From: Streptoalloteichus hindustanus | GTDB lineage: Bacteria > Actinomycetota > Actinomycetes > Mycobacteriales > Pseudonocardiaceae | Direction of reading: 5' to 3' | DNA: 64,000 nucleotides | NCBI RefSeq assembly: GCF_900129375.1 | Contig: NZ_FQVN01000006.1 | Location: 186,001 to 250,000, forward strand | Shown here: piece by piece, positions 28,818-31,064 of the stretch | Layout: the number at the start of each line of letters is the position of its first letter | Numbering within the stretch: the stretch's first letter is position 1 | Translations under genes and position numbers: made by a program | The notes under the pieces: generated by a model | Databases searched by the model: none | What the model saw: only the letters and a program-made list of their open reading frames with translations | What the model was told of the DNA's origin: nothing

Positions 28818-28920
28818 CACGTCCCCACGGTAGGCGGTGCCAGGTGAACCCCGGGTGAGGGTCCCCAACCCCGTGCGACACGAATCACCCCAGGTCCGAG
28901 CCCCCACGCCCTCGCGGAAC

Positions 28921-28945
28921 GTCCCTACTACCGCGTAGTAGGGAC
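28921..28945. promoter_or_regulatory. Perfect palindrome, candidate operator
   Basis: GTCCCTACTA and TAGTAGGGAC are exact reverse complements around CCGCG. It lies about 100 bases upstream of the lppZ-like start and 170 upstream of the pentapeptide-type gene. The shape suits a dimeric repressor site (TetR-like); without T-run or adjacent 3' ends a terminator is less likely. Confidence 0.45.
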
Positions 28946-29103
28946 TGCCCGGCCGAGGCTCCAAGCAATGGCGGGGGTCAGGAGATGTGAAACCGCGCAT
29001 TGCCTTTCCGTCGCCATGAGCCAGTAGCGGCGACAGGTAATCCGGACGCCACTGAAACGGAGCAATCAGGGTCCGTTCGGAACAAAATAGGGAGGTGTGT
29101 CGC

Positions 29104-29109
29104 TAGGGT
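29104..29109 (+). promoter_or_regulatory. -10 box of the leaderless pentapeptide-type gene
   Basis: TAGGGT lies six bases before the ATG at 29116. The ACAGG between them is too close to serve as a normal ribosome site, which supports leaderless translation. Confidence 0.4.
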
Positions 29110-29115
29110 GACAGG

Positions 29116-29772
29116 ATGGACTTTCGTACGTTCCAGGGCCGCTCTCTCCAACGTCCGTCCGTGGACGCGGATGACCTCCAGGAGGATTCGACGGGTTTCA
29201 AGGGTGAGTTCGACCTCGAATCCGTGAGCATGAGTGACGTCAGTCAACCCGGTGTTGTCGGGGAGGGCTCCCTGGCTCGTTCCGTTGTCACGCGGGTGAA
29301 CCTCGGTGAGTCCCGGCTCGGGCCACTGGTGTTGGCGGATGTTCGGACGGAAGACGTCGACCTGTCGAACGCCCACCTGGACTTCGAGACGATCCGACGG
29401 GTTGAGGTCATCCGCAGTCGTGCTGTGGGGGTGCGGTTGCGGGCTGGTGAGGTGAGCGACCTGTCCGTCGAGGAATCCCGCCTGGACTACGCCTCGCTCC
29501 ACTTCGAGCGGGTGAGGACGCTCGTGGTGTTCCGCGACTGTTCCCTTCGGGAGGCCACGTTCACGGGTGACCTGTCCAACGTGCTGTTCCTCGACTCGGA
29601 CCTGACGGACGCCGAGTTCGACGCACGCGCGGCGAGGGGACTGGACCTGCGGACCTGCCGCCTCGACGGGGTGAAGGGCTGGCGGACACTCCGGGGGGCG
29701 ACCGTCAGCGCCGATCAGGCCGTCTCGGTCGCCACTCTCCTGGCGACCGAGATCGGCCTGACCGTCGACTAG
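29116..29772 (+). CDS. Pentapeptide-repeat-like protein
   Basis: 218 residues with degenerate five-residue periodicity, for example DLSNAHLDF, DLSVEESRLDYASLHF, CSLREATFTGDLSNVLF and DSDLTDAEFDARAARGLDLRTCRLDGV. This gives the right-handed beta-helix of pentapeptide-repeat proteins. The N-terminal third is less regular. There is no signal peptide. The gene is convergent with, and only 7 bases from, the putative RiPP precursor; its GC content is a little lower than the core genes. Members of this family can mimic DNA or act as scaffolds or immunity factors; no role is proven here. Confidence 0.72.
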   Translation: MDFRTFQGRSLQRPSVDADDLQEDSTGFKGEFDLESVSMSDVSQPGVVGEGSLARSVVTRVNLGESRLGPLVLADVRTEDVDLSNAHLDFETIRRVEVIRSRAVGVRLRAGEVSDLSVEESRLDYASLHFERVRTLVVFRDCSLREATFTGDLSNVLFLDSDLTDAEFDARAARGLDLRTCRLDGVKGWRTLRGATVSADQAVSVATLLATEIGLTVD

Positions 29773-29779
29773 CTGGTTT

Positions 29780-29974
29780 CTACTTCTTCGCCCAGTTGTC
29801 CCAGGTGGGCCGGTTGTCGAACCCCCCGTTTCCGGTCTTGTTGTCCCAACTGGGGCGGTTGTCGAACGACCCTCCGCCGTTGCTGGCGCGGTGTCCGTCG
29901 CGTTGTCGCGCCAGCAGCACCCTCATTCCCGGTGCGGCGTGGGCAATTCGCTCAATGAGCGTGGCGGTTGGCAA
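29780..29974 (-). CDS. Putative cyclophane RiPP precursor peptide
   Basis: 64 residues when begun at TTG 29974, which follows GGAAGGGA and overlaps the end of the maturase gene; the first ATG (29926) would give 48. A leader (LIERIAHAAPGMRVLLARQ) is followed by a Gly/Asn-rich core with two repeats, SFDNRPSWDN (36-45) and GFDNRPTWDN (51-60), ending WAKK. F-D-N and W-D-N fit the aromatic-X-X pattern that radical SAM/SPASM three-residue cyclophane-forming enzymes crosslink between the aromatic ring and the third residue. The adjacent radical SAM gene supports this. Up to four rings are possible. The product is inferred, not known. Confidence 0.75.
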   Translation of the reverse strand: MPTATLIERIAHAAPGMRVLLARQRDGHRASNGGGSFDNRPSWDNKTGNGGFDNRPTWDNWAKK

Positions 29975-30817
29975 GGTCGATCATCCCTTCCACGAGTGCG
30001 ATCTTGCTGTTCCGGCAGTGGTCCGTTTCCGTTCCGTCCAGCCGCCCCGTCTCGAACAACCTGTTCGCGGGGTGGCCACCCCCGCAGAAGTCGAAGTAGG
30101 GGCAGGTGGCGCGGCACCGCTCGACGCCCCGGCGGAACTCCCGCACCCACGGGGCGTCGAGCCCCCGCTGGACGATCTGGTCCAGCGGCGTCATCAGCAC
30201 GTTCCCCGCCGACAACGAGCCGAACCGCGCCGAGTGTTGACCCCCTCGCGCTCCTCGATGTTCACGCCCAGCCACGCGGCCCCCAGCTCCCGTACGAACG
30301 TGTAGAGACGACCTGCCCGCTCCGGGGTCGGGTCCGACACCACCGCGATGACCGACACGGGTAACCCGACCGCCGCCAGGCGTCCGATCCCGTGCCGGAT
30401 GCGGTCGAAGGCAGGTCGGCCGGAGTGATCCACCCGCTGGCCGTTGTCCTCAGGTGGACCGTCGACGCTCACGCCCACCCGCACGCGGCGCTCCGCGAAG
30501 AACTCACACCATTCCGGGGTGATCAGCGTGGCGTTCGTCTGGACCGAGTGAACGACGTCCAAGCCGTCGAAACGGTCCATGAGCCGCCCGAGCACCGATC
30601 GGCCAGCGGCCAGCGGCTCGCCCCCGTGCCAACAGACTTCGACCGTTCCCCGGTCGACCCAGCCGGCCACGGCGTCTCGCACGCGGCCGGCGACAGTGGG
30701 ATACATGATCCGCTGCTTCCTCCGGTCTGGCAGGTAGCAGTAGGAGCAGTCCAAGTTGCAGAGGGTTGTCGGCTGCATGATGACCGCGGTCGTGGACTGA
30801 AAACCGAACTCTTCCAC
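29952..30817 (-). pseudogene. Radical SAM/SPASM peptide maturase with internal deletion and frameshift
   Basis: The first part (30817 down to about 30233) encodes a radical SAM domain with CNLDCSYC at residues 20-27, CWHGGEPL, VQTNATLI, VSVDGP and ending WLGVNIEEREGVNT. The second part, in another frame (about 30230 to 29952), encodes a SPASM-type tail: SAGNVLMTPLDQIVQRG, CRATCPYFDFCGGGHPANR and TETDHC. The junction is between 30228 and 30233. Intact relatives of this cyclophane-maturase group are, from memory, about 370-400 residues, so roughly 80-100 residues between the two parts are missing. GTG at 30817 is the likely start. Two functional polypeptides seem unlikely, but cannot be excluded. 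Confidence 0.75.
30196..30227. repeat. 32-base repeat, copy 1 (inside the maturase remnant)
   Basis: This segment, read on the minus strand, encodes RFGSLSAGNVLM of the maturase and is 31/32 identical to 31019-31050 in the same orientation. Its edge lies at the deletion junction of the maturase gene. Confidence 0.8.
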
Positions 30818-31018
30818 TTTGGTTACCTGTTCTCATCCGGCCTGCGATGCTTGCGCGAATGGCTGCCGAAAACAGGGGTGGGATACCAGGAACCCTCGAT
30901 CCGGTGCTTTCGTCGGCACCAGACCTGGTCTCCGCACGGGGTGGGCGGGCCTCCCTCGTTCGGGTGGAGAGAGGGGAGATCCGCCAGGTGGGTGGTTGGC
31001 GGTCGGTGCGGCGCCATG
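30818..31018. other. Leader region of the maturase remnant, no gene seen
   Basis: About 200 bases of lower GC content than the core genes. It holds the ribosome site ACAGG before the GTG at 30817. A minus-strand frame (30823-31038) continues from repeat copy 2 but has no resemblance to any family after the repeat. Confidence 0.45.
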
Positions 31019-31050
31019 AGCACGTTCCCCGCCGACAACGCGCCGAACCG
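31019..31050. repeat. 32-base repeat, copy 2 (orphan maturase fragment)
   Basis: Copy 2 differs from copy 1 at one base and would encode RFGALSAGNVLM on the minus strand, but the flanks are unrelated: the kbl terminator on one side and non-coding sequence on the other. It looks like a scrap of a second maturase gene or a recombination scar. Confidence 0.75.
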
Positions 31051-31064
31051 TGGGCCGGAAACGG

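Follow-up and report, generated by a model that had tools for sequence, protein, structure and literature searches.

The locus examined here raises a simple question. In the 64,000-nucleotide stretch of the Streptoalloteichus hindustanus genome that was analysed (contig NZ_FQVN01000006.1, positions 186,001 to 250,000; hereafter the window), a short RiPP precursor lies beside a radical SAM/SPASM maturase read in two frames, and it may be asked whether such a locus is dying, whether the two halves of the enzyme act as separate polypeptides, or whether a second maturase elsewhere in the genome acts on the precursor. These options had been left side by side in an initial annotation made from the sequence alone. 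The answer favoured here, with a probability of roughly 80%, is that the locus is an AmcB-AmcA-PRP cassette, i.e., a known actinobacterial multiple-cyclophane RiPP locus, whose amcB gene has been inactivated by an internal deletion plus a frameshift and whose pentapeptide-repeat protein (PRP) gene likely confers immunity. As such the locus is ordinary; its interest lies in the PRP link, which can be tested.

Identity of the precursor and maturase genes

Searches of the precursor and of both maturase halves against family models assigned them to AmcA (NF041721) and AmcB (NF041718), respectively. The amcA precursor gene (29780-29974, minus strand, TTG start) encodes 64 aa and scored 68.1 bits (6.4e-19) against the AmcA model, for which the cut-off is 40, and 67.1 bits in the genome scan. 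Its core reads FDNRPSWDN-KTGNGG-FDNRPTWDN-WAKK, and the two repeats were also found at the DNA level as a 33-nt direct repeat at 29795 and 29840 (85% alike), which bears out the earlier description of a 64-residue, two-repeat precursor of the cyclophane type. The window's AmcA is one of 30 distinct precursors compared. Its gene lies directly downstream of amcB, the usual order in relatives, and shares 23 nt (29952-29974) with the 3' end of the SPASM frame. While the initial annotation had seen both precursor and maturase, it had missed the named AmcA/AmcB system, the usual gene order and the third gene, encoding the PRP.

Both maturase halves matched the same model, confirming that a radical SAM/SPASM maturase is spread over two frames. 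The 5' part (30194-30817, minus strand, GTG start, 207 aa) carries the radical SAM domain (PF04055, 65.9 bits) and scored 248 bits (1.4e-73) against NF041718 over profile positions 4-198 of 362; its frame runs on past the frameshift and is closed by a TGA at 30194-30196. The 3' part, or SPASM half (29952-30275, minus strand, 107 aa), is homologous from about 30236 to near its stop and scored 105.8 bits (2.4e-30) over profile positions 271-360 of 362. Profile positions 199-270 are absent, and neither part exceeded the cut-off of 425 bits for a full-length AmcB, because a deletion of 74-79 residues and a frameshift interrupt the gene.

Linkage of a PRP gene to amcA

At 29116-29772 on the plus strand lies the gene for a PRP of 218 aa; it is convergent with amcA, and the two stop codons are 7 nt apart. 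In loci with AmcA_1-like precursors, this PRP gene is the third conserved member. A family draw of 297 genomes gave 23 AmcA matches at E ≤ 0.01, of which 20 exceeded the cut-off; two marginal matches (G016 and G129, E about 0.006), at whose loci our own profile gave 8.4 bits (L137) and no match (L136), were dropped before counting, and in all 21 of the AmcA genomes then left the PRP gene directly adjoins amcA, as judged from coordinates. In addition, 80 AmcB-like loci from a species collection were compared together with flanks of at most 5 kb (shorter for some loci), an AmcA_1-like precursor being called by our own profile at 28 bits or more (L053 with one core unit only). The PRP was present in 18 of the 18 AmcA_1-like loci versus none of the 62 others. 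Seven of these 18 are from Pseudonocardiales, six of which are apparently already in the family draw, as they have the same match scores. The PRP gene is convergent with amcA in Pseudonocardiaceae and lies on the same strand in 11 loci from other actinobacteria, and the linkage therefore holds in two orientations.

Further conserved partners, such as a protease or an exporter, were sought with a rough gene caller and blastp; besides amcB (called in 16 of 18) and the PRP (18 of 18), no neighbour was shared by more than five of the 18 loci. A gene of 182-245 aa follows the PRP in five of the 18 (L036:4298-5032, L045:7042-7779, L050:7062-7772, L046 and L049) and had no Pfam match in the three loci scanned. 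Where amcA and the PRP gene converge (in the window at 29770-29782), the distance between their stop codons ranges from -4 to +15 nt, and an overlap of 4 nt is frequent. So close a spacing leaves no room for a terminator, and the two transcripts should overlap; a promoter and terminator scan returned no sites.

Among the 62 loci lacking the PRP, 24 are mostly of the Actinoplanes/Micromonospora type with a precursor of the AmcA_3a kind (L014 tested), and a profile search for a PRP in AmcA_3a-type loci gave none. In one of this type, L015, the two downstream genes encode a DUF3073 protein and a Glu/Leu-type dehydrogenase. In 24 loci between L014 and L048 the precursor 3' of the AmcB gene ends AWNHFENIPTFYNWNNRPR, one having FF for FY. 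This precursor is nearly invariant across Actinoplanes/Micromonospora-type genera and is found with no PRP; its conservation suggests a fixed role.

Possible function of the PRP

PRPs of the Qnr, MfpA and AlbG type protect gyrase, and the Qnr/MfpA-type fold is a right-handed quadrilateral beta-helix with a C-terminal dimer module. When a profile was built from 21 PRPs (alignment A1, consisting of 20 amc-linked members and one orphan, L147), its strongest natural PDB matches were 2w7z (3.8e-17), 6fls, 2xt2, MfpA (2bm4 and 6zt4) and QnrB1, of which we take 2w7z to be EfsQnr and 2xt2 to be AlbG. Beta-helix proteins that are presumably designed were also among the top PDB matches, and HetL (3du1) and Np275 came lower. 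The C-terminal segment of the family (LrGarisaeqa) aligns with those of 2w7z and MfpA, and the net charge was -8 to -15 in the 13 members for which it was calculated. Together with a linkage that is tied to one precursor type in two orientations, these features point to self-protection, which would most likely be the task of the PRP in intact loci and would have been kept in the window after production was lost.

The strongest rival to this assignment is that the PRP next to amcA serves some purpose other than immunity, for example regulation, or is a passenger kept by the abutting 3' ends. All 21 members of A1 matched PF13599 at E ≤ 0.001, though the window copy, at 25 bits, fell short of the 38 that Pfam requires, and the window PRP had no NCBIfam model match at E ≤ 0.001. 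Among the weak model matches of the 21, anti-phage HalA (15 of 21) is about as frequent as Qnr (14 of 21), and the self-protection role is accordingly putative. Members of the family also occur apart from the peptide. PRP matches were obtained in 60 of the 297 genomes, 39 of which are without a confirmed AmcA (60 minus 21), and the PRP is therefore not bound to the peptide. Of these 39, 19 regions were taken as orphans, in addition to G201, leaving out weaker matches and four stronger ones (G073, G144, G166 and G204); no amcA or amcB match was found in the 19 regions (6.6-6.7 kb each), and five neighbours of the PRP in four of them belong to mutually unrelated families. In a tree of 52 PRPs, built without L135 (the PRP of G227, which is split by a stop and too short), the amc-linked label needs nine changes, at least three of them forced by well-supported branches, which fits a repeated separation of PRP and amcBA in the direction of either loss or gain. 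A role other than immunity is set against the two orientations, the tie to a single precursor type, the ranking of the structure matches, the shared C-terminal segment and the net charge, and we regard it as a serious contender that falls somewhat short of being probable.

If the PRP is taken as an immunity protein, gyrase may in turn be the target. A fuller proposal, put forward tentatively and in our view doubtful, is that AmcA_1-type peptides inhibit DNA gyrase or a related topoisomerase and that the adjoining PRP is the cognate self-protection; a producer that lost amcB but retained the PRP would then become an immune non-producer, and stand-alone PRPs would be the end point. Gyrase-protecting PRPs have served as beacons in the search for topoisomerase inhibitors such as cystobactamid and pyxidicycline (PMC9231227). 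A link between PRPs and cyclophane peptides is absent from the available parts of PMC9231227 and PMC11002830 and may be in print elsewhere, and no target for AmcA peptides was found in the literature as covered by open papers.

Nature of the amcB defect

An alignment of 23 intact AmcBs (A2) served as the reference for the size of the gap and for invariant columns. When the two halves were aligned to these homologues they did not join without a gap: counting from R196 of the first frame to H14 of the second (the counted ends overlap by 7 nt), 74-79 residues, mostly 75-77, are absent compared with all 23. The initial annotation was therefore correct in seeing a true gap, whereas its figure of 80-100 residues was too high, and of its three options that of a dying locus is the one supported by this gap and by the frameshift. 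The junction, across which 74-79 codons are gone and the frame is shifted, was placed by alignment to intact AmcB at about 30227-30238 (minus strand), a stretch into which both frames remain alignable. The missing part holds ten columns invariant in A2 and corresponds in a profile alignment to about residues 206-283 of the sulfatase-maturating enzyme anSME 4k37, a stretch that begins in the final portion of the barrel and reaches into the SPASM domain if the domain limits of 4k37 are as we assume them to be.

What is left of the gene is well preserved. The 5' part retains 40 of 41 invariant residues and the 3' part 11 of 11 (51 of 52 in total), the sole change being A to R. These include the radical SAM cluster motif CxxxCxxC (CNLDCSYC; C19, C23 and C26 of A2) and the four SPASM cysteines (CxxxCx5C...C; CRATCPYFDFC...C), which equal C312, C316, C322 and C345 of A2. 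That the retained parts are hardly eroded fits a recent event, and the deletion may thus be of fairly recent date. In intact relatives, AmcB would join an aromatic residue and Asn within the F/W-D-N units of the AmcA core, and up to four rings could form in a two-repeat precursor. Without the stretch that links the barrel to the SPASM domain, the AmcB of the window is probably unable to cyclise, in which case AmcA would stay linear. Against this explanation counts the good preservation of AmcA itself, which is unexpected beside a dead enzyme.

The surroundings of the cassette were compared with one other genome of the genus, G001. By blastn, long matches between the window and the corresponding place in G001 (L172) extend to 28866 and resume from 31054, and the 2187 bases between (28867-31053), which contain the whole trio, have no counterpart there; G001 has instead 556 bases without significant match. 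No AmcA, AmcB or PRP match was found in G001 at the limits used, and the kbl protein is 96% identical between G001 and the window. The G+C content of the segment is 62-67% in three of four 500-base steps and 71% in the fourth, versus 69-78% around it, which is compatible with, but not proof of, acquisition of the trio from outside. When plasmid carriage was checked, a single distant GrrM came up at E ≤ 1e-30.

A second copy of the start of the kept SPASM sequence, 43 nt long and 93% identical, lies at 31008-31050 (minus strand), at the kbl-side margin of the segment; the original (30185-30227) ends at the deletion junction. The copy and the deletion may stem from one complex rearrangement. A remnant of an upstream amcB copy was also considered, and only these 43 nt were found. 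This bears on the possibility that the gap arose as an artefact of assembly or sequencing and that the strain has an intact amcB. The locus comes from a single assembly (33 contigs), and the amcB frameshifts in S. spinosa and in a MAG show that such genes can look broken in drafts; an artefact would, however, need the clean loss of more than 220 bases inside a contig, and the presence of post-junction sequence elsewhere in the cassette points to a real rearrangement. An artefact is accordingly judged improbable.

Broken amcB genes are not confined to the window. The amcB frame is full-length in 17 of the 21 AmcA genomes (in G151 on another contig) and not in four, namely the window (deletion), G111 and G179 (frameshifts) and G227 (5' part absent). 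G111 is apparently S. spinosa (L011) and G179 apparently the MAG L006, and these two of the three other cases are single frameshifts that are possibly sequencing errors. In G227 the PRP gene contains a stop while amcA is open, which counts against the notion that the immunity gene goes last. Outside the 21, G201 has only 3' remnants of the amcB beside the PRP and an interrupted amcA, together with an intact PRP. With 87% completeness and 210 contigs, G201 is presumably a MAG, and since further AmcB-like genes occur elsewhere in it, the locus may not be an orphaned one. A programmed frameshift was considered since S. spinosa (L011), the MAG (L006) and G147 (L115) also break near the start of SPASM, and was rejected because the breaks differ (profile positions 316, 292 and 339) and because the window has a true deletion.

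The initial suggestion that the two halves work together as separate polypeptides found partial footing in the arrangement of their reading frames. The TGA that closes the 5' part and an ATG in the second frame (30192-30194) share bases in a TGATG at 30192-30196, with GGGGA a few bases upstream, so that translation of the SPASM part is possible, and both halves keep nearly all of their invariant residues. However, the 74-79 missing residues, ten of them invariant, are absent from both halves, the gap enters the SPASM domain, and none of the other interrupted AmcB-like genes compared has this gap. Cooperation of the halves is thus considered very improbable.

Least credible of all is modification of AmcA by another radical SAM enzyme, as the initial annotation had also envisaged: the genome has 29 radical SAM matches, the window's own included, but only two places besides amcB matched the AmcB model at E ≤ 0.001, scoring 67.7 and 26.5 bits where the cut-off is 425, one of these is closest to nif11/PapB-type maturases (below their cut-offs) and the other to BlsE (over its cut-off), and the AmcA of relatives adjoins its own AmcB. 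Searches of the genome with the AmcB and AmcA models gave no second AmcB over the cut-off and no second AmcA, and nothing was found that supplies the missing 74-79 residues. Elsewhere in the same genome, a 689-aa frame at C9:374374 (L004) matched the BlsE-type cytosylglucuronate decarboxylase model with 631 bits (cut-off 400), pointing to a possible blasticidin-like nucleoside cluster. Two adjacent large radical SAM frames were observed at C18:800098-802025; the second (945 aa, covered by L003) most resembles nif11/PapB-type peptide maturases, though its scores stay under their cut-offs.

Comparison with known systems

NCBIfam already has a name for the AmcA/AmcB family, which probably corresponds to the triceptide maturases from actinobacteria of Phan and Morinaka (2022). 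With this system (NF041721/NF041718) the window shares a precursor over the cut-off, both parts of the maturase, the amcB-amcA order and two F/W-D-N...W-D-N repeats, and it differs in the deletion of 74-79 residues and the frameshift in amcB; it is an inactivated member of the family. The three-residue cyclophane enzymes GrrM/OscB (TIGR04261) were the second-best model for both halves, scoring below AmcB, and the window's precursor is an AmcA and not of the Gly-rich GrrA type. Enzymes that form three-residue cyclophanes have been described; the linkages made by OscB run from C7 of Trp to Asn or Asp, or from C4 of Phe to Asn (PMC11002830).

For the PRP, the nearest known systems are Qnr, MfpA and AlbG, which provide the strongest natural structure matches and, for 2w7z and MfpA, a C-terminal segment in common with the profile of the window's family. 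The window PRP nevertheless lies far below the cut-offs of the Qnr/MfpA models (best score 17.6 bits, cut-off 240), and the function assigned to it is putative. One type of precursor, AmcA_1-like, is accompanied by a Qnr/MfpA-like PRP in every locus examined, in two orientations and across several actinobacterial families, a link that names gyrase as a testable candidate target for AmcA_1-like peptides. Set beside the intact AmcA/AmcB loci, the window offers a natural case of an enzyme lost and a putative immunity kept.
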